From NCBI RefSeq assembly GCF_030815975.1, contig NZ_JAUSXL010000002.1, positions 5,134,501 through 5,198,500 on the forward strand: 64,000 nt of DNA. The letters run 5' to 3'. How positions within the stretch are numbered: position 1 is the stretch's first letter; each line of letters opens with the position of its first letter. Shown here piece by piece: positions 47,441 to 60,368 of this stretch. A program made the position numbers and the translations under genes. Below the pieces are notes generated by a model that worked only from the letters and a program-made list of their open reading frames with translations, made no database searches and had not been told where the DNA came from. The DNA is from Variovorax paradoxus (GTDB lineage Bacteria > Pseudomonadota > Gammaproteobacteria > Burkholderiales > Burkholderiaceae_C).

Positions 47441-48442
47441 CTACGCCGCCTGCGCCACGGGCTCATGCGCCAGCGCCATCACCTCGTGCGGCGAGCACGC
47501 CTTCCGCCGGTGATCGCTCCAGACCTGGCGCCAGCGCCGTGCGCCGGGCAGGCCGTTGCGCAAGCCCAGCATGTGCCGCGCGATCGACGACCATGGCGTG
47601 CCGTGTTCGGCCGCCTCGCGGACCATGTAGTCGCACATCAGCGATTCGACGTCTTCGCGCGTGAGCGGCTGCGGCGCGGCGCCGTAGAACTGCGCGTCCC
47701 ACTCGGCCAGCCACCAGGGATTGTGGTAGGCCTCGCGGCCGACCATCACGCCGTCGAGCAGCCGCAGATGCTCATGCACCTGCGCGTTGGCCGAAATGCC
47801 GCCATTGATCGAGAAATTCAGCTCCGGGAACTCGTGCTTCAAACGGTGCACGAGTTCGTAGCGCAGCGGCGGAATCTCGCGGTTCTGCTTCGGGCTCAGG
47901 CCCTTCAGCCAGGCATTGCGCGCATGCACGATGAAGGTCTTGCAGCCCGCCTCGCTCACCGCACCGACAAAGTCGCGCACGAACTCGTAGCTCTCGATCT
48001 TGTCGATGCCGATGCGGTGCTTGACCGTGACCGGCAGGCGGGTGGCGTCGACCATGGCCTTCACGCAATCGGCCACCAGCGCCGGCTCGGCCATCAGGCA
48101 GGCGCCGAAAGCGCCGCGCTGCACGCGCTCGCTGGGACAGCCGCAGTTGAGGTTGATCTCGTCGTAGCCCCACTCTTCGCCGAGCCTGGCGCAATGCGCC
48201 AGGTCGGCCGGCTCGCTGCCGCCCAGCTGCAAGGCCACGGGGTGTTCTTCCACGTTGAAGCGCAGGTGCCGGGGGACGTCGCCATGCACCAGCGCACCGG
48301 TGGTCACCATCTCGGTGTAGAGCAGCGCATGGCGCGACATCAGGCGATGGAAGTAACGGCAATGGCGGTCCGTCCAATCCATCATCGGTGCAACCGAAAT
48401 GACTTTTTCTTTCAAATTCAACAGCTTGGCGCTTTCGTTCAT
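47441..48442 (-). CDS. dusA: tRNA-dihydrouridine synthase A
   Basis: 333 residues. FMN-barrel features include VAPMMDWTDRHCRYFHR at the start, the catalytic cysteine in LNCGCPSERVQRGAFGACLM, VKHRIGIDKIESYEF and NGGISANAQVHEHLRLLDGVMVGREAYHNPW. DusA reduces U20/U20a in tRNA. It lies 51 bases downstream of the transporter permease on the same strand. Confidence 0.95.
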   Translation of the reverse strand: MNESAKLLNLKEKVISVAPMMDWTDRHCRYFHRLMSRHALLYTEMVTTGALVHGDVPRHLRFNVEEHPVALQLGGSEPADLAHCARLGEEWGYDEINLNCGCPSERVQRGAFGACLMAEPALVADCVKAMVDATRLPVTVKHRIGIDKIESYEFVRDFVGAVSEAGCKTFIVHARNAWLKGLSPKQNREIPPLRYELVHRLKHEFPELNFSINGGISANAQVHEHLRLLDGVMVGREAYHNPWWLAEWDAQFYGAAPQPLTREDVESLMCDYMVREAAEHGTPWSSIARHMLGLRNGLPGARRWRQVWSDHRRKACSPHEVMALAHEPVAQAA

Positions 48443-48493
48443 ACAGATGGCCTTCAGCTGTAGTTTCTCATGCAGCGGCCGCCCGGGCGCGGC

Positions 48494-49333
48494 TCACCGC
48501 CCCATGAAGCGCCGGGCGACATAACTCCCGGCATCCACCAGGGCGACCAGCACGATCATGGCCAGCAGCACCGTGCCGGTCTCGCCCATCTGGAACAGGC
48601 CCAGGTGGAAGGCCAGCATCTGGCCCAGCCCGCCGGCACCGACCACGCCCAGCACGGCCGCCGCCCGGATGTTGTTCTCCCAACGGTAGAGCGCATAGCT
48701 CATCAGTTGCGGCAGCACCTGCGGCAGCGTCGCATAGAGGAACACCCGCCCTTCCGGCACGCCGCGCACGCGCAGGGCGAACGCCGGGCCCTGCGCCGCG
48801 TTCTCGATGCTTTCGGCGAACAAGCGCCCCAGCACGCCGGAGGTGTGCACCGCCAGCGCCAGCGTGCCCGCGAAAGGCCCGAGGCCGGCCGCGATCAGCA
48901 GCAGCGCGGCCCACATCAGTTCCGGGACGCTGCGCAGGGCGTTGAGCAGCAGCCGCGTCGGACCGCGCCAGCGCGCCGGATCGGCGGCGTGCAGCTTGCT
49001 CGCGGGCAGCGCGAGCAGCAGGCCGGCCACCACGGCCAGCAAGGTGCCGACCACCGACATCGCCAGCGTCTCGAGCGCGGCCGGCAGCAGCTTCTGCAGG
49101 AAGGCCGCGCCGAGGGCCGGCTTCGCGAGTTCGCCGGCGAAGCGGCCCATGCGGGCCAGCGACTCGGTCGAGAAGAAGCGCGCCCACTGCAGGTCGAGCG
49201 ACCAGAAGCTCGCGACCACCAGCGCCGCCAGCGCAGCGACCATCCAGCAGGCGCGGCAGCGCGCATCGAACAGCGGCGGCGGCAGCCGGTAGACCTCGTT
49301 GGCGGCGGATGACTTCGGTTCGGTCTTGGGCAT
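48494..49333 (-). CDS. PhnE-type ABC permease 1, probable selenium oxyanion importer
   Basis: 279 residues with about six hydrophobic segments and the BPD permease EAA-like loop (VRGVPEGRVFLYATLPQVLPQLMSY). Family: PhnE, inner-membrane subunit of phosphonate/phosphite-type importers. A second PhnE-like subunit is encoded just upstream (18-base gap), so the channel is probably a heterodimer. The operon begins with senA, which points to selenium transport rather than phosphonate. No C-P lyase genes are present. Confidence 0.82.
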   Translation of the reverse strand: MPKTEPKSSAANEVYRLPPPLFDARCRACWMVAALAALVVASFWSLDLQWARFFSTESLARMGRFAGELAKPALGAAFLQKLLPAALETLAMSVVGTLLAVVAGLLLALPASKLHAADPARWRGPTRLLLNALRSVPELMWAALLLIAAGLGPFAGTLALAVHTSGVLGRLFAESIENAAQGPAFALRVRGVPEGRVFLYATLPQVLPQLMSYALYRWENNIRAAAVLGVVGAGGLGQMLAFHLGLFQMGETGTVLLAMIVLVALVDAGSYVARRFMGR

Positions 49334-49351
49334 GTCGAGGCTCTCAGGCTC

Positions 49352-50188
49352 TCAAGCCAATGCGCGCCGCAGCCACGCGCTCAGCCGGTCGGTGGCGGCG
49401 ACCAGCAGCACGAATACGAGCAGCATGGTGCTGACCTCGGCGCCGTTGAACATCTTCATCGACGCATCCATCTGCTGGCCGAGCCCGCCCGCGCCCACGA
49501 AGCCGAGCACGGCCGACGAGCGGATGGCGCATTCCCAGCGGTAGACGGTGTAGCTGGTGAGTTCGCCCGCGTTCTGCGGCAGCAGCCCGTAGAAGAAGGC
49601 CTGGATGCGGCCCGCGCCGTTGCGCAGCAGTGTCTCGGTGGGATGGGCATCGCCGCTCTCCAGGATCTCGCCGTAGACCTTGCCCAGCATGCCGGCATAG
49701 GTCAGCGCGATCGCCAGCACGCCGGCCGTGACGCCCAGCCCGACCACGCGCACGAACACCAGCGCCCAGATGAGTTCCGGCACACTGCGCAGCACGATGA
49801 GCAGACCGCGCACCGAAAAGCGCAGCACTGCCGGCAGCGCCGCCATGCGGCCGGCCAGCCCGGAGATCGAGAGCGAGCGCACCGACAGCAGCGTGAGCGG
49901 AACCGCCAGCACCATGGCCAGCGTCAGCCCGGCGGTGGCGATGGCCACCGTGCGCCAGGTTTCCCGTGCCACCAGCGCCAGGAACTCCGCGTCCATGCGC
50001 GGCGGCACGAAGCCGGCCAGAAACCGCAGCGCCGGTTCCAGGCTGCCGGGCGCGAGCAGCAGCCAGGGCTTGAATTCGGCCAGCACGAGCATGGGCCACA
50101 GCACCACGGCCGCGGCCAGCAGCCAGAACACGCGGTGCGCCCAGGCGGGGTCGCGCTGCGCCGGTGTGCGTGACGGGACGGCGGCCAT
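49352..50188 (-). CDS. PhnE-type ABC permease 2, probable selenium oxyanion importer
   Basis: 278 residues. Hydrophobic segments near residues 22-42, 75-100 and 125-240 and a PhnE-like cytoplasmic loop (ESGDAHPTETLLRNGAGRIQAFFYGLLPQNAGELTSY broken over the membrane edge) mark it as the partner permease. It starts two bases after the phnC-like stop. The two permeases are recognisably homologous but differ in their N-terminal parts. Confidence 0.82.
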   Translation of the reverse strand: MAAVPSRTPAQRDPAWAHRVFWLLAAAVVLWPMLVLAEFKPWLLLAPGSLEPALRFLAGFVPPRMDAEFLALVARETWRTVAIATAGLTLAMVLAVPLTLLSVRSLSISGLAGRMAALPAVLRFSVRGLLIVLRSVPELIWALVFVRVVGLGVTAGVLAIALTYAGMLGKVYGEILESGDAHPTETLLRNGAGRIQAFFYGLLPQNAGELTSYTVYRWECAIRSSAVLGFVGAGGLGQQMDASMKMFNGAEVSTMLLVFVLLVAATDRLSAWLRRALA

Positions 50189-50190
50189 GG

Positions 50191-51009
50191 TCAGCGGCAG
50201 TGCATGACGACAGGACCCGCTTCGACAGGGCCCCGGTCAAGGACGCCGGCCTGCGCCGGCTCCTGTGCATACAGCTCGCGCAGCAAGGCGGGCGTCACCT
50301 GCGCGGTGGGCAGGTCGAAGGCCAGCGATCCGTCGCGCAAGCCGATGATGCGCGGAAAGTGCTGCAGCGCAAGCGGCACGTCATGCAGGGTGGCCACCAG
50401 CGTCGCCCCGCCGTCGCGCGCCCACTGCGTGAGGCTGTCCAGCGCCTGCCCGGCGCGGGCCGGGTCCAGCGCCGACAAGGGCTCGTCGACGAGCAGCAGC
50501 TGCGCCTCGGACAGCAGGCCGCGCGCCAGACCCACGCGCTGCCGCTCGCCGCCGGACAGGCGGTCCACGCGCGCGAAGAGCTTGTCCGCCATGTCGAAGT
50601 GCGCCAGCGCGGCGTCGGCCTGCGCGATGCCGGTCGGATAGAACAGGCTGCGCAGCGCCTGCCACAGCCCGATGCGCGGCAGCCGGCCGGCCAGCACCGC
50701 GGTCACCACGCGCTGGCGCGGCGGCAGCGGCGGCACCTGGGGCGCCAGGAACAGCCGGCCGCGCAGGCGCTGCAGTTCGCGCCGGGGCAGCCGCCACGGA
50801 TCGCGGCCGTCGAGTTCGATGCTGCCGGCCGCGGGCGCGAGCGCGCAGGCCATCAGGTGCAGCAGCGTCGTCTTGCCGGCGCCCGAAGGACCGATCACCG
50901 CGGCCTGCTCGCCCGCCGCCACGTGCAGGTTCAGTGCCCGCAGCGCGGCCGGCGCCGCGGCGGGGGCCGCCGGGTGCCGGCCGGACGCCGACCGCAGTTC
51001 GATGTTCAC
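50191..51009 (-). CDS. PhnC-type ABC ATPase, probable selenium oxyanion importer
   Basis: 272 residues with all ABC motifs: Walker A VIGPSGAGKTTLLH, signature LSGGERQRVGLARGL, Walker B LLLVDEPLSALDP and the H-loop in TLVATLHDVPLAL. It belongs to the PhnC branch by gene order. It energises import with the two permeases. An Ala/Pro-rich N-terminal insertion (residues about 10-24) is unusual but harmless to the fold. Confidence 0.88.
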   Translation of the reverse strand: MNIELRSASGRHPAAPAAAPAALRALNLHVAAGEQAAVIGPSGAGKTTLLHLMACALAPAAGSIELDGRDPWRLPRRELQRLRGRLFLAPQVPPLPPRQRVVTAVLAGRLPRIGLWQALRSLFYPTGIAQADAALAHFDMADKLFARVDRLSGGERQRVGLARGLLSEAQLLLVDEPLSALDPARAGQALDSLTQWARDGGATLVATLHDVPLALQHFPRIIGLRDGSLAFDLPTAQVTPALLRELYAQEPAQAGVLDRGPVEAGPVVMHCR

Positions 51010-51034
51010 CGGCTTCGCTCCTGCATCGCGCCGC

Positions 51035-51892
51035 TCAGTTCAGCAGGCCGGCGTTGCGCGCCGCGGCTTCGATGCCCTTGTAGTTCTCGGCGCGCGTTGG
51101 CACGAAGCGCGTGGCGCGCTGCAGCGCGAGGATGTCCTTGCCCTCGGCGGTGGCCGGGCTCAGCTCGACGAACGCGCGCACCAGCTGCTCGCGCCTGGCG
51201 GCCGGCATGTCGGCATGCACGGTCCAGTTGTAGTCGTAGTAGGCGGGCGTGGTGTAGAACACCCGCACCTTCACCGGATCGACCTTCTTGTCGGCCACGA
51301 GCTTGTCCCACACCGAGATGTTGAGCGCCCCGGCGTCCACCTTGCCCGATGCGACCGCGGCCACCGTGGCATCGTGCGCGCCAGAATAGGCCACGCGCTT
51401 GAGGTCGCGGTCGGGGTCGATGCCGGCCGCCAGCAGGAAGCTGCGCGGCATCAGGTGGCCCGAGGTGCTCGACTGCGAGCCGAAGCTCAGGTTGCGGCCC
51501 TTGAGATCGGCGAGCGAGCGGATGTCCGGATTCGTGGTGATGAAGACCGAGCGGAATTTCTCGTCTTCCTCGCGCTGCACCAGCGGCACCACCTTGCCGC
51601 CGGAACGATGGCTCGCCTGCACGAAGGTGAAGCCGCCGAGCCAGGCCAGGTCCACCTGCTTGTTGGCCAGCGCCTCGACGGCGGCCGCGTAGTCGGTGAC
51701 CGGCGTGAATTCAACCTTCACGCCCAGCTTGCGCTCCAGGTAGGCGGCCAGCGGCGCCGACTTGCGCGCCAGCTCGGTCGGCGACTCGTCGGGGATCGCG
51801 GTGATGCGGAACGTTTGTTGGGCCTGCGCGGCCACGGCACCAGCCAGCAGGGCCAGCGCCAGCACGAAGCGCGGCAAGACAGCAAATTTCAT
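51035..51892 (-). CDS. PhnD-like periplasmic binding protein, putative selenate/selenite binder
   Basis: 285 residues with a signal peptide (MKFAVLPRFVLALALLAGAVAAQA). The PhnD-type body includes TAIPDESPTELARKSAPLAAYL, VDLAWLGGFTFVQA, GSQSSTSGHLMPRSFLL and AYSGAHDATVAAVASGKVDAGAL. A clade of these binding proteins linked to selD has been annotated as putative selenate transporters, to my recollection; direct adjacency to senA here fits that clade. Phosphonate or phosphite are alternatives. It lies 53 bases downstream of senA on the same strand. Confidence 0.8.
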   Translation of the reverse strand: MKFAVLPRFVLALALLAGAVAAQAQQTFRITAIPDESPTELARKSAPLAAYLERKLGVKVEFTPVTDYAAAVEALANKQVDLAWLGGFTFVQASHRSGGKVVPLVQREEDEKFRSVFITTNPDIRSLADLKGRNLSFGSQSSTSGHLMPRSFLLAAGIDPDRDLKRVAYSGAHDATVAAVASGKVDAGALNISVWDKLVADKKVDPVKVRVFYTTPAYYDYNWTVHADMPAARREQLVRAFVELSPATAEGKDILALQRATRFVPTRAENYKGIEAAARNAGLLN

Positions 51893-51945
51893 GAAACTCC
51901 CGAAAAGCGAAGAACAAAGCGGGGATTAGACCGCAAGAGCCCGGT

Positions 51946-53205
51946 TCAACCGCCGGCGGCCCGGCTGCTGCGGAAGCCGGCGAAGACGTCGCGGCGGTGC
52001 GGCTCGAAGAAGTTGCGGTAGCGCGCATGCGCGAGCGCCGCCGAGGTGGCATGGCAGGCGCCGCGCAGCACCCGCCGGGTGCCGAACCACGGCGCCGAGT
52101 AGTCGCGGTAGGGATGGGGTGTGAAGCCCGGGTAGGGCTCGAACGGGCTCGAGGTCCATTCCCATACCCCCAATACCCGGCCCCAGGCGAAGCCCGGCAG
52201 CGTGAGCGCCGCGCACTCCCATTCGGCTTCGGTCGGCAGCCGCCGCCCGGCCCAGCGGCACCAGGCTTCGGCTTCGTGTGCGTTCAGGTGAACCGCTGCA
52301 TCGAGCGGGTTCAGCGGCAGCCAGCGGTCGCCATGCCGCTGCTGCCAGCCCGTGCCCGCCGCACGCAGATGGGCGGGCTGGCGCAGCGGCTGGCGCGCGA
52401 GCCAGTCGCGGCCCGCGTCGGACCACCACGCCGGGTTGTCGTAGCCGCCGCCTTGCACGAACGGCAGGAAGCGCGCCCAGCTCACGGGTTGCGCGTCGAT
52501 GCGCAGCGGCTCGATGGCCACGTCGTGCGGCAGCAGCTCGTTGTCGAACGCAAAGCCGGTGCCGGCCTCGGAACCCATGCGGAAACGCTGCGCCGGCAGT
52601 TCCAGTTCGGCATCCGCGGCCGGCTGCGGCGCAGGCCCGCCCTCGCGCAGCGCGATGCCCAGGCCCTCGGCCATGTAGGCCGCCGCTTCCGCATGCATGG
52701 CCTCGTGCAGGGCGACCAGGCGGAAGAAGTACAGCGCATCGTCATCCGCATCGGGCGGGAGCCCGTCCAGCAGTGCCAGCGTTTGCGCGAGCGTGCGTTC
52801 GAGGTAGCCGCGCGTGGCCTCGGCATCGGGTAGCGGGAGCGCCCAGCGGGTGCGGTGCGCCACGCGGCTGGAGTCGTACCAGGCGTCGGCCTGCGGCAGC
52901 AGCGAGGGCTCGCGCGCAGGGTCCGGCGCGCAGGCCACGCCCCGCGCGCGCTGCCGGTTGCGGCCGATCCACCATTCCTGGAACCAGGCCACATGGCCCA
53001 GCTCCCAGAGCGGCGGGTTGAGCTCGGGCGCGTAGTCGATGCCGGGATAGGCGTCTCCCAGCGCGGCCCGGAAGTCGTCCGCAAGATCGAGCGTGCGCTG
53101 CCGCGCGGCCAGCAACGCCGCGCGCACCGATGCCGGCGGCCCCGCGCGAAGCGCCAGCGCCTCGGGCGCCGCGGCCACGCTATAAACAGGCAATGTCGAA
53201 TCCAT
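51946..53205 (-). CDS. senA: selenoneine synthase SenA (EgtB-like non-haem iron enzyme)
   Basis: 419 residues in the EgtB pattern: an N-terminal DinB-like domain with iron-binding histidines His71 (LWELGHVAWFQ), His167 and His171 (LHEAMHAEA), and a C-terminal FGE/sulfatase-modifying domain (about 215-415; CRWAGRRLPTEAEWECAAL, WEWTSSPF, VLRGACHAT). SenA couples a selenosugar to hercynine on the way to selenoneine. The assignment rests on the direct neighbourhood of senB and selD; EgtB of ergothioneine synthesis is the alternative by fold alone. No EgtD (hercynine-forming methyltransferase) is in the window. The first 13 bases overlap the divergent senB. Confidence 0.88.
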   Translation of the reverse strand: MDSTLPVYSVAAAPEALALRAGPPASVRAALLAARQRTLDLADDFRAALGDAYPGIDYAPELNPPLWELGHVAWFQEWWIGRNRQRARGVACAPDPAREPSLLPQADAWYDSSRVAHRTRWALPLPDAEATRGYLERTLAQTLALLDGLPPDADDDALYFFRLVALHEAMHAEAAAYMAEGLGIALREGGPAPQPAADAELELPAQRFRMGSEAGTGFAFDNELLPHDVAIEPLRIDAQPVSWARFLPFVQGGGYDNPAWWSDAGRDWLARQPLRQPAHLRAAGTGWQQRHGDRWLPLNPLDAAVHLNAHEAEAWCRWAGRRLPTEAEWECAALTLPGFAWGRVLGVWEWTSSPFEPYPGFTPHPYRDYSAPWFGTRRVLRGACHATSAALAHARYRNFFEPHRRDVFAGFRSSRAAGG

Positions 53206-54185
53206 CGGTTGTCATCGTAAGCCCGGCACTGCCCGGCGCCAACAACGGCAACTGGCGCACCGCCCAGCGCTGGAAGGCCATGCTGTCGCCCACCTGCAGC
53301 GCACGCGTGGTGCAGCAATGGCCCGATGCAGCCGCGCCGGCCGACACCGTGATGCTGGCATTGCACGCGCGGCGCTCGGCCGATTCCATCGGGCACTGGG
53401 CGAAGGCCCACCCCGGCCGCGGCCTGGCCGTGGTGCTGACCGGCACCGACCTGTACCAGGACATCGGCAGCGATCCGCAGGCGCAGCGTTCGCTGCAGCT
53501 GGCGCAGCGCCTGGTCGTGCTGCAGGCGCTGGGCGCCCAGGCCCTGCCGCCGCAATACCGGGCCAAGGCGCGCGTGGTGTACCAGTCGACCTCCGCGCGC
53601 GCCGAACTGCCCAAGTCCGCACACCACCTGCGCGCGGTGATGGTCGGCCACCTGCGGCAGGTCAAGTCGCCGCAGACGCTGTTCGAGGCGGCGCGCCTGC
53701 TGTGCGGGCGCGAGGACATCCGCATCGACCACATCGGGGACGCGGGCGACGGCGGCCTGGGCGAGCTCGCGCGCTCGCTCGCAAGCGACTGCCCGGGCTA
53801 CCGCTGGCTCGGCGCCCTGCCCCATGCGCAGACCCGCCAGCGCATCCAGCGCGCCCACGTCCTGGTGCACACCAGCGCGCTGGAAGGCGGGGCCCACGTG
53901 ATCATGGAGGCGGTGCGCAGCGGCACGCCGGTGCTGGCGTCGCGCGTGCCCGGCAATGTCGGCATGCTCGGCGGCGACTACGCGGGCTACTTTCCGCATG
54001 GGGATGCCGCCGCACTGGTGGCGCTGCTCGAGGCCTGCCGCGCTGGCCAGCGTTCTAAAGACCGCGCAGCCGGCCTGCTCGATAGCCTGCGCACACAATG
54101 CGCGTTGCGCGCGCCGCTGTTCGACCCGAGGGCCGAACAGGCCGCACTGTTCCAACTCCTGAACGAACTCCAGCCACCACCATGA
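53193..54185 (+). CDS. senB: selenosugar synthase SenB (glycosyltransferase-like)
   Basis: 330 residues from the ATG at 53193. A GT-B fold is suggested by the N-terminal VVIVSPALPGANNGNWRTAQRW and the C-terminal HTSALEGGAHVIMEAVRSGTPVLASRVPGN nucleotide-sugar segment. SenB of the selenoneine pathway uses selenophosphate and a UDP-sugar to make the carbon-selenium bond of a selenosugar; this function is taken from family and context. TATAAA at 53181-53186 lies so close to the ATG that the mRNA may be leaderless. The stop overlaps selD by 4 bases. Confidence 0.88.
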   Translation: MSNPSVVIVSPALPGANNGNWRTAQRWKAMLSPTCSARVVQQWPDAAAPADTVMLALHARRSADSIGHWAKAHPGRGLAVVLTGTDLYQDIGSDPQAQRSLQLAQRLVVLQALGAQALPPQYRAKARVVYQSTSARAELPKSAHHLRAVMVGHLRQVKSPQTLFEAARLLCGREDIRIDHIGDAGDGGLGELARSLASDCPGYRWLGALPHAQTRQRIQRAHVLVHTSALEGGAHVIMEAVRSGTPVLASRVPGNVGMLGGDYAGYFPHGDAAALVALLEACRAGQRSKDRAAGLLDSLRTQCALRAPLFDPRAEQAALFQLLNELQPPP

Positions 54186-55255
54186 ACGCTGCCCTCCCGC
54201 AAGCCTCCGCCGCCGAGCCCCGCCTCACCTCGCTGTCGCATGGCGGCGGGTGCGGATGCAAGATCGCGCCCGGCGTGCTGTCGGAAATCCTCAAGGGCAC
54301 CGCGCGCATGCCGATGCCGCCCGAGCTGCTGGTCGGCATCGAAACGGCCGACGACGCGGCCGTCTACCAGCTCAACGACGAGCAGGCGCTGATCGCCACG
54401 ACCGACTTCTTCATGCCGATCGTCGACGATCCGTTCGACTTCGGCCGCATCGCGGCAACCAACGCGATCTCCGACGTGTATGCGATGGGCGGCAAGCCGA
54501 TCCTGGCGCTCGCCCTGGTCGGCATGCCGATCAATGTGCTCGGCACGGCGACCATCGCGCGCATCCTCGAGGGCGGCGAATCGGTGTGCCGGGCCGCAGG
54601 CATTCCGATCGCGGGCGGCCACACCATCGATTCGGTCGAAGCCATCTACGGGCTGGTCGCGCTCGGGCTGGTCCATCCGAAACGCGTCAAGCGCAATGCC
54701 GGCGCGAAGGCCGGCGACGTGCTGGTGCTGGGCAAGCCCCTGGGCGTGGGCATCCTGTCCGCGGCGCTCAAGAAGGAAGCACTCGACGCGGCCGGCTACG
54801 AACGCATGATTGCCACCACGACGCAGCTGAACACGCCGGGCCCCGAGCTCGCGGCGCTCGATGGCGTGCATGCGCTGACCGACGTGACGGGCTTCGGCCT
54901 GGCCGGCCATGCGCTGGAACTGGCGCGCGGCGCGGGCCTGTCGCTGGAAATCGGCTGGCGGCAGGTGCCCGTGCTGGAGGGGGTGCGCGATCTGGTGCAG
55001 TCGGGGCACGTCACCGGCGCTTCCGGCCGAAACTGGGCCGGCTACGGGTCCGACGTGGCGCTGCCGCAGAACTTCGCCGAGGAGGAGCGCGCGCTGCTCA
55101 CCGACCCGCAGACCAGTGGCGGACTGCTCGTTTCGTGCGCGCCCGAGACACTCGGCGAGGTATTGGCCATCTTCCGTCGGCATGGCTTCGACGACGCCGC
55201 AGTGATTGGCAGCGCCAGCCCGCAAGGCACCGGGGCGCGCCTGGTGATCCGCTGA
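54182..55255 (+). CDS. selD: selenide, water dikinase (selenophosphate synthetase)
   Basis: 357 residues from the ATG at 54182. The catalytic loop SHGGGCGCKIAPGVL has Cys24, Cys26 and Lys27, equivalent to Cys17, Cys19 and Lys20 of E. coli SelD. Further family segments are DDAAVYQLNDEQALIATTDFF, GRIAATNAISDVYAMGGKP, IAGGHTID and LTDPQTSGGLLVS. It makes selenophosphate from selenide and ATP, feeding SenB (in this cluster also called SenC) and perhaps selenoproteins or selenouridine elsewhere. No selA, selB or selU is in the window. Confidence 0.95.
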   Translation: MNAALPQASAAEPRLTSLSHGGGCGCKIAPGVLSEILKGTARMPMPPELLVGIETADDAAVYQLNDEQALIATTDFFMPIVDDPFDFGRIAATNAISDVYAMGGKPILALALVGMPINVLGTATIARILEGGESVCRAAGIPIAGGHTIDSVEAIYGLVALGLVHPKRVKRNAGAKAGDVLVLGKPLGVGILSAALKKEALDAAGYERMIATTTQLNTPGPELAALDGVHALTDVTGFGLAGHALELARGAGLSLEIGWRQVPVLEGVRDLVQSGHVTGASGRNWAGYGSDVALPQNFAEEERALLTDPQTSGGLLVSCAPETLGEVLAIFRRHGFDDAAVIGSASPQGTGARLVIR

Positions 55256-55418
55256 CGCGCTGGCGCGTGGGCCGCGCTGTCGAGGCCGCGGCTCAAGCCA
55301 CATCGCACTCTGAGGTTGTTCCGGAAGTCGCCCCGGTTGTCGCACCTGAACTGCCATTTCAGCCCGGCTGTCGCCTATCCTCGGACCCGCGTTCCAGCAC
55401 TCCAGAGAGACCCGTCCC

Positions 55419-56474
55419 TTGCCCTCGACCAAAGCATCCGCCCCCCTGCCCCGTCCGGCGACGATGGCCGATGTCGCCGCGCGCGTCGGCGTCTCGAAGA
55501 TGACGGTGTCGCGTGCGCTGAACCGCCGCACGGGCAGCGACCGGGCGACCTCGCAGGCGCTGCGCCAGCGCATCCTCGAGGCCTGCGAGGAGATGGGCTA
55601 CGTGATCGACCAGACCGCGCGCACCTTCTCCAGCAAGCGCTCGGGCTTCGTCGCGGTGCTGATTCCGTCGCTGAACAACTCCAATTTTTCCGAGACGGCA
55701 CAGGGCATCGCCGCCGCCCTGGAAGCGCGTGGACTGCAGCTGCTGCTGGGCTACACCGACTACCGCGTCGAGACCGAAGAGCGCCTGCTGCGCGCCATGC
55801 TCGCGCGCCGGCCCGAGGGCGTGATCCTCACGGGCGGCGCCCACACGCCCGCCGCGCGCGCCATGCTGCAGGCGGCCGGCGTGCCGGTGGTCGAGACCTG
55901 GGACCTGCCCGCCACGCCCGTCGAGCACACGGTCGGCTTCTCGAATGCGCAAGCCGCCGCCGCGATGGTGCGGCACCTGCATGGCCAGGGCTACCGGCGC
56001 ATCGCCTTCATCGGCGGCACCTCGAACCGCGACACGCGCGGCGCCGACCGGCAGCGCGGCTATGCCGAGGCGATCCGCGAACTGGGCCTGCCCGCCGGGC
56101 GCGTCATCAGCTTCGGGCAGCCGCCGATCTCCATGGCGCAAGGCGGCGAGGCCGTGGTGCAGCTGATCCGGCAATGGCCCGACGTGGATGCGGTGATGTG
56201 CGTGTCCGACCTCTCGGCCTTCGGCGCGCTGATGGAATGCCGGCGCCGCGGCTGGGACGTGCCGGGCCGCATCGCGATCGCGGGCTTCGGCGACTTCGAG
56301 GTGGCCCGCGCCTGCCACCCGCGCATCACGACCGTGGCGGTGGACTGCGTGGGCATGGGCTGGGCCGCGGGCGAATTGCTGCTGCGCGTGATCGACGGCG
56401 CGCGCGAAGGCCAGCGGCCGCCCGCGGAAACGGTGCTGATCCCGTTTCGCGTCGAGCAGCGCGAAAGCTCCTGA
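55419..56474 (+). CDS. LacI-family regulator, gluconate/idonate type
   Basis: 351 residues from a TTG at 55419; an ATG at 55464 directly before the helix-turn-helix is the alternative start. The DNA-binding domain is TMADVAARVGVSKMTVSRALNRR with the hinge following; the ligand domain (about 75-345) is periplasmic-binding-protein-like. It resembles GntR/IdnR of enterobacteria, and two operators of the TACCGGTA type lie nearby at 58569 and 58649, between the genes it most likely controls. Confidence 0.87.
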   Translation: MPSTKASAPLPRPATMADVAARVGVSKMTVSRALNRRTGSDRATSQALRQRILEACEEMGYVIDQTARTFSSKRSGFVAVLIPSLNNSNFSETAQGIAAALEARGLQLLLGYTDYRVETEERLLRAMLARRPEGVILTGGAHTPAARAMLQAAGVPVVETWDLPATPVEHTVGFSNAQAAAAMVRHLHGQGYRRIAFIGGTSNRDTRGADRQRGYAEAIRELGLPAGRVISFGQPPISMAQGGEAVVQLIRQWPDVDAVMCVSDLSAFGALMECRRRGWDVPGRIAIAGFGDFEVARACHPRITTVAVDCVGMGWAAGELLLRVIDGAREGQRPPAETVLIPFRVEQRESS

Positions 56475-56480
56475 GGCCGG

Positions 56481-57554
56481 TCAGGCCGCCGCGGCTTCCA
56501 CGCCGGTGTCGGCAAAATCGATCAGCACCTTCATCGCCTGCCTGCGGTCGCTCGCCAGCTCGAAGGCCTCGCGCGCCTGCAGCATCGGGAAGGTGTGCGA
56601 CACCACCGGCGACAGGTCCACGCGCCCTTCGTTGATGAGCCGCACCGCAAGCGCGAACTCCGCGTGGAAGCGGAACGAGCCGCAGATGCTGAGCTCCTTC
56701 GCCACCACCATGTTCTGCGGAATGCTCACGTCGCCGCCCAGGCCCAGCTGCACGACCACGCCGCGCGGGCGCATCACTTCGAGCCCGTCGCGCAGCGCGC
56801 GCTCGTTGCCCGAGCATTCGAGCATCACGTCAAAAGTGCCCTTGTCGGCCGAATAGCGCGACACCCAGGCCTTGTCCTCGGCAACATTGATGGCGTGGTC
56901 GGCGCCCATGGCGCGCGCAATGGCCAGCGGCTCGTCGACCACGTCGGTGGCGGTGATCTCGGCCGCGCCGTGCGCGCGCGCGGCTGCGATGGCCAGCACG
57001 CCGATGGGCCCGCAGCCCGACACCAGCACGCGCTTGCCCAGCAGCGGGCCTGCGCGCGACACGCCATGCAGCCCCACCGAGAACGGCTCGGCCAGCGCCG
57101 CCAGGCGCAGCGGCACGTGCTCGGCCACCTTCACGCACTGCGTGGCCTCGCACAGCAGCATGTTGCGGAACGCCCCCTGCACGTGCGGCATGCGCATGGC
57201 GCTGCCGTAGAAGCGCATGTCCAGGCACTGGTTGGGCAGGCCTTCGAGGCAGAACTTGCAGGCGCCGCATGGGCGGCTCGGGTTGACCGCCACCTTGTCG
57301 CCGATGCGCACGCTGTCAACGCCGGGCGCCGTGGCCACCACGGTGCCGGCCACTTCATGGCCCAGCACCATCGGCTCCTTGATGCGCACGGTGCCGAAGC
57401 CGCCGTTGTGAAAGTAGTGCAGGTCGGAGCCGCAGATGCCGCCCATGCCGACCTTCACCAGCACCTGGCCCGGGCCGATGTCTCCGGCGTCCTGTTCCTC
57501 CAGGCGCAGATCGTCGGGGGCGTGGATCACGAGGCACATGCAACGTAGACGCAT
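56481..57554 (-). CDS. L-idonate 5-dehydrogenase-like zinc alcohol dehydrogenase
   Basis: 357 residues from the ATG at 57554, which has GAAGGAAG eight bases upstream. Zinc ligands are in GICGSDLHYFHNG and GHEVAG; structural zinc cysteines in CGACKFCLEGLPNQC. The Rossmann segment is VLVSGCGPIGVLAIAAARAHGA. Family and neighbours (gluconate 5-dehydrogenase type gene, gnt-like operators) favour oxidation of idonate or a similar sugar acid at C5. It is convergent with the LacI gene and downstream of the 2-hydroxyacid dehydrogenase. Confidence 0.85.
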   Translation of the reverse strand: MRLRCMCLVIHAPDDLRLEEQDAGDIGPGQVLVKVGMGGICGSDLHYFHNGGFGTVRIKEPMVLGHEVAGTVVATAPGVDSVRIGDKVAVNPSRPCGACKFCLEGLPNQCLDMRFYGSAMRMPHVQGAFRNMLLCEATQCVKVAEHVPLRLAALAEPFSVGLHGVSRAGPLLGKRVLVSGCGPIGVLAIAAARAHGAAEITATDVVDEPLAIARAMGADHAINVAEDKAWVSRYSADKGTFDVMLECSGNERALRDGLEVMRPRGVVVQLGLGGDVSIPQNMVVAKELSICGSFRFHAEFALAVRLINEGRVDLSPVVSHTFPMLQAREAFELASDRRQAMKVLIDFADTGVEAAAA

Positions 57555-57575
57555 GATGTTTCTTCCTTCGGGCCG

Positions 57576-58529
57576 TCAGGCGACCGGGGTGACGAGGGGC
57601 TGGCCCGCGAAGTGGGCCTCGAGGTTGCGGCGCACCAGCTCGCCCATGGCGCGGCGCGTCTGCTCGGTGCCGCTGCCATGGTGCGGATGCAGCACCACGT
57701 TGTCGAGCGCCGCAAAGCGCGGGTCGATGCGCGGCTCGTTCAGGAACACGTCGAGCGCCGCGCCCGCGATGGTGCGCTGCTCGAGCGCCTGCAGCAGCGC
57801 GCCCTCGTCCACCGTGGTGCCGCGCGACACGTTCACGAGCCAGCCCTTGGGGCCCAGCGCCTGCAGCACCTGGGCATTTACGATGCCGCGCGTGGCCTCG
57901 CCGCCGGGCAGGATGACGATGAGCACGTCGCACCATTCGGCCATGGCCGCGAGGCTGCCGAAGTGGCGATGCGGGCTGTCTTCGCGCGCCGTGCGGCTGA
58001 AATAGCCCAGCTCCACGTCGAAGCCCGAGAGCCGCCGCGCGATGGTGCCGCCGATGCGCCCGAAACCCGCAATGCCGATGCGCTGGCCGAAGACCCGCGT
58101 GGCCAGCGGCATCGGGCCCTGGGCCCATTCGCCGCTGCGCACGAAGCGGTCGCCGGCCGGAATGCGCCGCTGCAGCGCCAGCGTGAGGCCCACGGCAAGG
58201 TCGGCCACGTCGCCGTTGAGCACGTCAGGCGTGTTGCTGACGCGGATGCCGCGCGCGCGGCAGGCCGCAAGGTCGATGCCGTCGGTGCCCACGCCATAGC
58301 AGGCGACCAGCTCCAGCCTCGGCAGCGATGCGATGAGCTCGGCGCTGGCACCCAGCTCGCCACGGGTTGCGACCGCGCGGATGTGCGGGGCGTGCTCGGC
58401 GACGAAGGCCTGCCGGTCCGGCGCCTCCCACCAGCGAAGCAGCGTGTAGCTCGCCTGCATCGGCACCATGTCCCATTCCGGATAGGGGCCGGGCATCAGC
58501 ACGTGCGGGGGTCTCGGGACAGCGGTCAA
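57576..58529 (-). CDS. D-2-hydroxyacid dehydrogenase (gluconate 2-/glyoxylate reductase type)
   Basis: 317 residues from a TTG at 58529 with AGGAG seven bases upstream; no suitable ATG lies near. The NAD(P) motif is GIAGFGRIGGTIARRL. Catalytic Arg (VNVSRGTTVDEGALL), Glu (DVFLNEPRID) and His (VVLHPHHGSGT) are present. It probably reduces a 2-keto sugar acid or hydroxypyruvate. It heads a two-gene unit with the idonate dehydrogenase, divergent from the gluconate 5-dehydrogenase type gene. Confidence 0.85.
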   Translation of the reverse strand: MTAVPRPPHVLMPGPYPEWDMVPMQASYTLLRWWEAPDRQAFVAEHAPHIRAVATRGELGASAELIASLPRLELVACYGVGTDGIDLAACRARGIRVSNTPDVLNGDVADLAVGLTLALQRRIPAGDRFVRSGEWAQGPMPLATRVFGQRIGIAGFGRIGGTIARRLSGFDVELGYFSRTAREDSPHRHFGSLAAMAEWCDVLIVILPGGEATRGIVNAQVLQALGPKGWLVNVSRGTTVDEGALLQALEQRTIAGAALDVFLNEPRIDPRFAALDNVVLHPHHGSGTEQTRRAMGELVRRNLEAHFAGQPLVTPVA

Positions 58530-58568
58530 GCGGAATCTCCTGCGGGATGGCGCGGATGCGCAAAAACG

Positions 58569-58580
58569 GATACCGGTAAC
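58569..58580. promoter_or_regulatory. gnt-like LacI-family operator, copy 1
   Basis: GATACCGGTAAC with a TACCGGTA core, 40 bases upstream of the 2-hydroxyacid dehydrogenase start. It resembles the gluconate/idonate operators of enterobacteria. An identical copy is 80 bases away. Confidence 0.68.
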
Positions 58581-58648
58581 TTTAACAGCGGCCGGGGCTA
58601 GCCCGACGGAAACTCTCACGAAGGTTTTCACCATTGACGATCAAACAA

Positions 58649-58660
58649 GATACCGGTAAC
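58649..58660. promoter_or_regulatory. gnt-like LacI-family operator, copy 2
   Basis: GATACCGGTAAC again, exactly 80 bases from copy 1 and 45 bases before the gluconate 5-dehydrogenase type gene. One operator per divergent promoter, or DNA looping between them, is plausible. Confidence 0.68.
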
Positions 58661-58704
58661 GTATTTGCATCGCCACCGCCCGCCCATCCTCCTGGAGCTC
58701 CGCT

Positions 58705-59466
58705 TTGAAACTGTTCGACCTGACCGGGCGCACCGCCCTCATCACCGGCTCCAGCAAGGGCATCGGCTTTGCGCTGGCTGCGGCACTGGGCTCGGCCGGC
58801 GCGCGCATCGTGCTCAACGCGCGCGATGCCGGCGCGCTGGAAGCCGCGCGCGACGCCCTGCGCGCCCGGGGCGTGGCGGCCGAGGCCATGGCCTTCGACG
58901 TGACCGACGCCGCCGCGGTGGAAGCCGGCGTGGCGCGCGTCGAGGCCGAGGTCGGCCCCATCGACATCCTCGTCAACAACGCGGGCATGCAGCACCGCGG
59001 TGCGTTCGCGGAGTTTCCGCTCGACGCCTGGCACAAGATCACCACCACCAACATCGACAGCGTGTTCTTCGTCGGCCGCTTCGTGGCGCAGCGCATGATC
59101 GAGCGCAAGCGCGGCAAGATCATCAATGTCTGCTCGGTGCAAAGCGAGCTGGGCCGCCCGGGCATTGCGCCCTACGCCGCCACCAAGGGCGCGGTGAAGA
59201 TGCTCACCAAGGGCATGGCGATCGACCTCGGCAAGCACGGCATCCAGGTCAACGGCCTGGGCCCGGGCTATTTCAAGACCGAGCTGACGCAGGCGCTGGT
59301 CGCCGACGAAGCTTTCACGGCATGGCTCTCCGGCCGCACGCCCGCCGGGCGCTGGGGCGACGTGGAAGAACTCGGCGGTGCGGCGATCTTCCTCGCGTCG
59401 GACGCATCGAGCTTCGTCAACGGCCACATCCTCTACGTGGACGGCGGCATCACCGCCAGCCTCTAA
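58705..59466 (+). CDS. SDR-family gluconate 5-dehydrogenase-like oxidoreductase
   Basis: 253 residues. The NAD(P) motif is ALITGSSKGIGFALAAALG; the catalytic Ser (INVCSVQSELG), Tyr and Lys (PYAATKGAVKM) are present, with NNAGMQHRG. The branch matches Gno/IdnO, which interconverts 5-ketogluconate and gluconate. It heads a plus-strand operon with the hydroxyacid dehydrogenase (2-base gap) and the small monooxygenase-like gene. Confidence 0.87.
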   Translation: MKLFDLTGRTALITGSSKGIGFALAAALGSAGARIVLNARDAGALEAARDALRARGVAAEAMAFDVTDAAAVEAGVARVEAEVGPIDILVNNAGMQHRGAFAEFPLDAWHKITTTNIDSVFFVGRFVAQRMIERKRGKIINVCSVQSELGRPGIAPYAATKGAVKMLTKGMAIDLGKHGIQVNGLGPGYFKTELTQALVADEAFTAWLSGRTPAGRWGDVEELGGAAIFLASDASSFVNGHILYVDGGITASL

Positions 59467-59468
59467 CC

Positions 59469-60368
59469 ATGTCCGCGCAGCCGGGCCAGCGCGTGGCCGT
59501 GATCGGCGTCGGCATCATGGGCTCGGCCATTGCATACCGCCTGCTCGAATGCGGCCACGCAGTGTGCGTGTTCGATCCCGATGCCGCCAGGGTCGCCACG
59601 ATGGAGCAGCTGGGCGCGCAGGCCGCCAGCAGCGCGGCCACCGCCGCGGCGGCGAGCGACTTCGTCATCACCAGCCTCAACTCGGCCGCGGTGCTGGAGC
59701 GCGCGCTCTTCGGCGAAGCCGGCGTGGCCGCCGCCGTGCCCGCGGATTCGCGCCGGCTGCTGATCGACATGTCGTCCATCGACCCGGTCTCCACGCGCCG
59801 GCTCGCGCAGTCGCTGCGCGAGCGCACGGGCATGGGTTTCGTCGATGCGCCGCTGTCGGGCGGCGCTCCCAAGGCCCTGGTCGGCCAGCTGACGGTCATG
59901 GCCGGCGGCAGCGAGGACGACGTGGCGCGCGCACACGCCGTGATGGACAGCCTGTGCGCCAACTACACCCGCATGGGCGAGAGCGGCGCGGGCCAGACCA
60001 CCAAGCTGGTCAACCAGCTCCTTTGCGCCATCGGCTTCCAGGCGGTGGCCGAGGCGGTGCGGCTGGCGGAGGCCGGTGGCGTCGATGCGTCGAAGCTGCA
60101 CACTGCGCTGGCCGGCGGCCGGGCCGACAGCAATATCCTGCGCGAGTTCGGCCCCAAGATGGCCGCGCGCGACTTCACGCCCACCGGACGCATCGACAAC
60201 ATGCTCAAGGACCTCGAGGCGGTGCAGGCCTTTGCACAGGGCGAGCGCCTGCCGCTGCCGCTGGCGGGTGCGGTCTCCGAGCTGCATCGCGCCTTCGTGG
60301 CGGCCGGCCTCGGGGCCGAGGACACGGCCGCCATGATGCGGCAGTTCAACGGCTACGCGCGCGACTGA
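59469..60368 (+). CDS. beta-hydroxyacid dehydrogenase (GarR/3-hydroxyisobutyrate type)
   Basis: 299 residues. The N-terminal Rossmann motif is VAVIGVGIMGSAIAYRLLECG; substrate-binding DAPLSGGAPKALVGQLTVMAGG and the catalytic Lys in TTKLVNQLL follow. The family includes tartronate semialdehyde reductase and 3-hydroxyisobutyrate dehydrogenase; a sugar-acid-derived semialdehyde is the likely substrate here. It follows the SDR gene by two bases. Confidence 0.85.
   Translation: MSAQPGQRVAVIGVGIMGSAIAYRLLECGHAVCVFDPDAARVATMEQLGAQAASSAATAAAASDFVITSLNSAAVLERALFGEAGVAAAVPADSRRLLIDMSSIDPVSTRRLAQSLRERTGMGFVDAPLSGGAPKALVGQLTVMAGGSEDDVARAHAVMDSLCANYTRMGESGAGQTTKLVNQLLCAIGFQAVAEAVRLAEAGGVDASKLHTALAGGRADSNILREFGPKMAARDFTPTGRIDNMLKDLEAVQAFAQGERLPLPLAGAVSELHRAFVAAGLGAEDTAAMMRQFNGYARD

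Follow-up and report, generated by a model that had tools for sequence, protein, structure and literature searches.

Cells need selenium in traces but are poisoned by an excess of it, which raises the question of how they tell it from the anions of sulfur and phosphorus. The pathway to selenoneine through SelD (SenC), SenB, and SenA has been described (PMC9814287; available portions of PMC10702425 and PMC10891094), and the reactions of its enzymes, including selenoneine formation, are published for Variovorax paradoxus. In the accessible portions of the sen-cluster descriptions, which do not include the defining Nature 2022 paper, the locus is a three-gene cluster and no importer is named. According to the available text of recent articles, a specific importer with high affinity for selenium has yet to be identified (PMC9312934, 2022; PMC11097638, 2024; PMC13188914, 2026). 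The stretch analyzed here (the window, 64,000 nucleotides of a V. paradoxus genome, contig NZ_JAUSXL010000002.1 of assembly GCF_030815975.1) holds an island of seven genes at 48494-55255 that pairs this solved pathway with a candidate importer, an ATP-binding cassette (ABC) system of the Phn type. We consider with good confidence that the island is a locus for acquiring selenium and making selenoneine.

The island turned out to align end to end with the corresponding region of V. paradoxus NBRC 15149 (L102) at 94.1% DNA identity. The L102 contig carries these seven genes in identical order and encodes the crystallized SenA: its protein aligns to the solved selenoneine synthase (PDB 8ryz) over the full 416 residues, and the alignment shows no mismatch. 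The window proteins are 92% (SenA), 94% (SenB), and 99% (binding protein) identical to those of NBRC 15149. Thus, the enzymes are known, the arrangement exists in the characterized locus, and the window is a further Variovorax copy of it. A sequence-only reading, made earlier from the letters of the window, had presented the arrangement as something beyond the known Variovorax locus; this part of it found no support. The sen cluster (senA-senB-senC) of V. paradoxus DSM 30034 comprises the same three enzymes, whereas the island comes from another genome of the genus. We take NBRC 15149 and DSM 30034 to be one strain.

All seven reading frames were found where that reading had placed them, and frames and profile scores agree on a Phn-type importer, SelD, SenB, and SenA. 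By rising coordinate, the minus strand encodes two PhnE-type permeases, a PhnC-type ATPase, the binding protein, and SenA, which heads this strand as described earlier; the plus strand encodes SenB and then SelD, whose frames share the 4 bases already reported. The gaps from SenA through the importer genes are 53, 25, 2, and 18 bases. The genes were named with the curated cut-offs of NCBIfam. Five of the seven products exceed them, namely the three enzymes, the binding protein, and one of the permeases; the second permease and PhnC resemble the phosphonate models yet score lower.

SenA (51946-53205, minus strand) scores 520.1 bits on the selenoneine synthase model NF041186 (cut-off 420) and matches PDB 8ryz across 419 of 419 query residues, being a near-copy of the crystallized V. 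paradoxus SenA. The sequence-only reading had named its own refuting case, namely that SenA belongs with the EgtB of ergothioneine synthesis and SenB with ordinary glycosyltransferases. The EgtB fold is indeed common to SenA, which reaches 242.2 bits on the EgtB model TIGR03440; however, the cut-off of that model is 360, and in a 51-row tree a 100/100 branch sets the 45 SenA-like rows apart from the six EgtB rows, which were found beside egtD. The window SenA falls in the SenA clade alongside two proteins from Ramlibacter and three from named Variovorax. (Rows of this tree were assigned to the group 'next to SenB' by exclusion; a copy of the window protein was left out, and the G035 protein was included twice.) H71, H167, and H171 (window numbering) are all present and are invariant across 34 SenB-linked rows; by analogy with EgtB, we take them to be the iron-site histidines. 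SenB (53193-54185, plus strand) passes TIGR04348 with 429 bits (cut-off 300), is a near-copy of the solved SenB chains (8jjq/8fbx, ~681 bits), and has K158 and, at 231, EGGAHV, which are key SenB residues according to the available part of PMC10891094. On these profile scores and the tree, the EgtB reading was rejected, and we hold the refuting case as a whole to be extremely improbable.

SelD (54182-55255, plus strand) scores 426.8 bits on TIGR00476 (cut-off 125). Its CGCK motif at residue 24, in which the Cys and Lys presumably have functional roles, aligns with GCGCK of 3u0o (328 bits). Each of the three enzymes therefore passed the profile search against its own model. The enzyme reading is correct and already known, the identities being assigned here by sequence comparison, and SenA is predicted to make selenoneine from hercynine and the selenosugar.

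The periplasmic binding protein of the importer (51035-51892, minus strand), the proposed selenite binder, scores 411.9 bits on TIGR04553 (cut-off 250). The other components lie on the same strand: the PhnC-type ATPase with a GTG start (50191-51009; best NCBIfam model TIGR02315 at 176.4, below 266.1; PF00005 above its cut-off with 94.2 bits), the proximal PhnE-type permease (49352-50188; TIGR01097 at 199.2 bits, below 216.7; PF00528 above its cut-off), and the distal one (48494-49333; TIGR01097 at 253 bits vs. 216.7). Their linkage to selenium genes was studied in a family sample (150 genomes of one family) and a phylum sample (299 genomes). All rows over the cut-off were used for TIGR04553, SenB, SelD, SelA, and EgtD, and for SelU 25 of its places. 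The SenA rows are incomplete (down to ~359 bits plus the EgtB row of the window genome, among the matches listed), so counts of SenA near SenB are lower bounds, with G019 as a known miss.

In the family sample, 67 genomes have a TIGR04553 member above the cut-off, 44 with SenB and 23 without (co-occurrence 44/150, p 2.6e-12). As many as 46 of the 67 TIGR04553 members are within 10 kb of selD vs. 1 of the 83 weaker, below-cut-off PhnD-like hits that served as the control, among the matches listed by the same search (p 5e-21). Genomes lacking sen genes have TIGR04553 beside selD and selU or in a formate dehydrogenase-selA-selB cluster (G030, L083), and on a Sphaerotilus plasmid selU, the importer genes, and selD are consecutive (neighborhoods were read in 3 of 7 plasmid records). 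When the label 'near SenB' is mapped onto a tree of 46 binding proteins, it has to change at least 10 times, and well-supported branches force 5 of these changes. At the phylum level, TIGR04553 occurs in 24 of the 299 genomes, and SelD in 22 of these 24 vs. 62 of the 275 others (p 1.4e-11); outside the window's own family, SelD accompanies it in 17 of 19 genomes, within 10 kb in 6 of them. From this genomic linkage we infer that the importer moves selenium. It belongs with selenium generally, not with selenoneine alone, and its partners vary (sen, selU, selA-selB).

Several observations weigh against tying the importer to selenium and to the sen genes. TIGR04553 is missing over the cut-off from 9 of the 53 SenB genomes of the family and from within 10 kb of SenB in 17 of them, and three of eight named loci (L106, L108, L109) lack the importer in the fetched flanks. 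Conversely, 10 of the 67 importer genomes have no SelD, SenB, EgtD, SelA, or listed SelU within 10 kb, and 2 of the 67 have no SelD (assemblies 85% and 76% complete). Only 9 of the 24 TIGR04553 genomes of the phylum sample have SelD within 10 kb; SelD is missing there from G290, which has the binding protein and is listed as 100% complete, and from G406 (78% complete). The annotation within 8 kb of a plasmid copy in Paracoccus names no selenium gene. Finally, the binding pocket alone does not separate selenite from phosphite.

That pocket nevertheless bears on the ligand. The ten residues published for the pocket of Prochlorococcus PhnD1, a phosphite binder, are all kept in the window protein. 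In PhnD1 the tyrosine cap leaves space at the fourth position for hydrogen only, as stated in the available part of PMC5700983, and phosphite is bound at 50-120 nM, tetrahedral phosphate only at 55-200 μM (PMC8786288). Such a pocket argues for a three-oxygen anion, and from it we infer selenite rather than selenate as the ligand. Selenate as the cargo is what the NCBIfam name of TIGR04553 says ('putative selenate', a hypothetical equivalog); also in its favor, the structure of ArrX, which is more distantly related, was determined with arsenate. Selenate, however, is tetrahedral like phosphate, whose binding to PhnD1 is weaker by a factor of about a thousand than that of phosphite; we regard a selenate importer as unlikely.

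The same pocket, being that of a proven phosphite binder, fits an importer for phosphite or another phosphorus oxyanion that would lie beside selenium genes by chance. On a Burkholderia plasmid, a relative with 40% identity adjoins an annotated phosphonate dehydrogenase and shares the STS, His, Asp-Tyr, and Phe positions. Since the pocket is shared with this phosphite-linked relative, the case for selenium rests on the linkage. The Burkholderia protein, however, scores 221.2 bits, below the TIGR04553 cut-off of 250. The only 2-hydroxyacid dehydrogenase close to the island, at 57576-58634, which stands among idonate- and gluconate-type genes, gives 338 bits to hydroxypyruvate reductase-like proteins vs. 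121 bits to phosphite dehydrogenases. No phosphite dehydrogenase was found among the island neighbors examined, the whole genome not having been searched for one. It is above all the selD linkage (46/67 vs. 1/83) that disfavors phosphite, though the pocket fits it, and we consider a phosphorus importer quite improbable. Phe113/Asp220 as a feature separating selenium-linked from phosphite-linked proteins was tried and dropped because the Burkholderia protein has both.

In G058, a second PhnD-like protein (L082:6820-7656; 216.7 bits, below the cut-off) stands in tandem before the TIGR04553 protein and has lost the pocket histidine. Phage records gave two unannotated Staphylococcus entries at 26% identity.

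How far the sen arrangement itself is kept was counted in the family sample. SenB is over the cut-off in 53 of the 150 genomes, with SelD (49/53), the binding protein (36/53), and EgtD (27/53) within 10 kb of it. The binding protein, SenA, and SelD are all within that distance of SenB in at least 24 genomes; egtD is also there in 14 of these 24 and not in the other 10, the window genome among them. Anywhere in the genome, egtD occurs in 49/53 genomes with SenB vs. 49/97 without. The gene orders come from 40 loci that were chosen rather than sampled at random. Among the eight loci taken by name in the genome scan, the seven-gene order is common to four (L102, L103, L104, and L107), and L105 has egtD inserted.

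Variants of the arrangement occur as well. In seven loci (L063-L069, from G066, G129, G132, G103, G109, G053, and G099), selD stands head-to-head with a SenA-like gene in a genome without SenB over the cut-off and with egtD somewhere; these pairs are possibly another selenium trait. The window genome has a second SenA-clade protein (C2:309751-310968, i.e., L062:6749-8002; 365.1 bits, below the SenA cut-off of 420), which groups with the seven at 100/100. The third iron-site histidine, H171, is Arg in it and is lost in six of the seven. The NCBIfam SenA model may over-call selenoneine synthase, since it still gives more than 420 for five of the seven (G103, G129, G099, G132, and G066, among the matches listed). 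Three near-complete genomes, G021 (L072), G036 (L074), and G137 (L092), have SenB near SelD, and no SenA/EgtB match at 1e-60 (among the matches listed) and no EgtD match at 1e-40 was found in them; a selenosugar made where selenoneine synthase is lacking suggests another end product. In L070 (G017) and L071 (G118), egtB and egtD directly adjoin selD without SenB, and these EgtB proteins are in the EgtB clade of the tree. In L075, from G122 of the same genus, a TIGR04553 importer with a binding protein of a distant clade (58% identity) adjoins selD, and SenB has no match at E 0.001; the sen genes thus vary within the genus.

The genome as a whole (6.09 Mb in 2 contigs, listed completeness 99.98%) shows which selenium traits the island can serve. 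The sequence-only reading had found no selA, selB, or egtD nearby and had hercynine come from elsewhere, and it was right on both counts. SelA was not found in the whole genome, no SelB is over the cut-off genome-wide (best 181.9 vs. 242.25), and egtD lies at C2:3735433-3736332 (418.8 bits), 1.45 Mb from the island and directly behind an EgtB-clade gene. Given this egtB-egtD pair, hercynine would be available from the EgtD encoded elsewhere, and the cell probably makes ergothioneine as well. A SelU is encoded at C2:559242-560159 (351 bits), and the one SelD match in the genome is that of the island. Since SelU also needs selenophosphate, the island serves no fewer than two selenium traits: selenoneine and selenouridine in tRNA. 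The earlier wording of a self-contained small-molecule pathway with a dedicated transporter was therefore too strong: the only detected SelD must also supply the distant SelU, and in other genomes the importer family adjoins selD-selU, selA-selB, or selD alone.

In the mechanism that we propose, the ABC importer (binding protein, two PhnE-type permeases, and PhnC-type ATPase) would take up a selenium oxyanion, presumably selenite. Cellular thiols or reductases would then convert it to selenide, a step for which the island has no gene. SelD would turn selenide into selenophosphate, SenB would join selenium to a UDP-sugar, and SenA, as an iron enzyme, would place selenium onto hercynine made by the distant EgtD, giving selenoneine; the same selenophosphate pool would also supply SelU for tRNA selenouridine. 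Hydrogen selenite is a pyramidal three-oxygen anion with a pKa near 8, so that it is still protonated near neutral pH, and its protonation would suit the ligand-binding Asp220/D205. This position is tied to a protonated ligand in the accessible part of PMC5700983. More broadly, and tentatively, as something close to an even call but short of it, we suggest that the dedicated importers with high affinity for selenite that are still missing in bacteria are those of TIGR04553, a module for any selenophosphate user that a genome may have (sen, selU, or selA-selB). The PhnDCE system of Prochlorococcus and Synechococcus would likewise be a selenite importer, its phosphite binding being a mimicry of hydrogen selenite. 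The enzymes being known already, the lasting lead of the island is this importer family and its predicted ligand.

The start region common to the two divergent transcripts (53181-53205) adds a point absent from the sequence-only reading. As annotated, senA and senB have 13 bases in common at their 5' ends, and a TATAAA element (GCTATAAA), read directly in the sequence, lies 6 bases upstream of the senB ATG, within the annotated 5' end of senA. The element and its spacing are the same in three other Variovorax, in L106 and L107 (Ramlibacter), and in L061 (G035). Variation among Variovorax in codons 1-27 of senA is mostly at the third position. The true start of senA is uncertain and may be somewhat downstream of 53205. 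It is possible that 53181-53205 acts as a bidirectional, near-leaderless promoter; a sigma-70 scan of 48300-55500 gave 0 promoter-like sites. An Rfam search of the window returned one tRNA and nothing else. Past the island, at 55419-60368, a LacI/GntR-type regulator and idonate/gluconate-type dehydrogenase genes form a sugar-acid catabolism cluster that is apparently unrelated.

Among known transporter families, the window protein joins TIGR04553, the putative selenate ABC transporter binding protein, and is a neighbor of selD; the family name says selenate, whereas selenite is proposed here. In the literature searched, the accession TIGR04553 was not found, nor was any report of a 'selenate ABC transporter' with SelD or of selenite with phosphite and a substrate-binding protein; selenite occurs together with PhnD in two papers that look unrelated. 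The PtxABCD phosphite systems resemble the island in having a PhnD-superfamily importer with an STS-His pocket, but they are linked to the phosphite dehydrogenase that was sought among the island neighbors. PtxB of T. erythraeum scores 138.6 bits on TIGR04553 (partial sequence) and has Tyr and Gln where the TIGR04553 family has Phe113 and Asp220. In contrast, PhnD1 of the PhnDCE system of Prochlorococcus and marine Synechococcus is in the same TIGR04553 family (301.6 and 337.6 bits vs. the cut-off of 250, partial sequences being scored), shares the pocket, and provides the nearest solved folds. The family includes two crystallized marine cyanobacterial proteins of unsettled cellular role. The available part of PMC5700983 describes Prochlorococcus PhnDCE as ubiquitous and of unknown in vivo function, with no response to phosphorus limitation and no linkage to genes for phosphite or phosphonate. 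Three Prochlorococcus are among the organisms with an orphan SelD in the accessible portion of PMC5029168, where an ABC ATPase gene is noted near orphan selD. PhnD1 has been studied as a phosphite binder, unlike the selenite role proposed here for its Variovorax relative.

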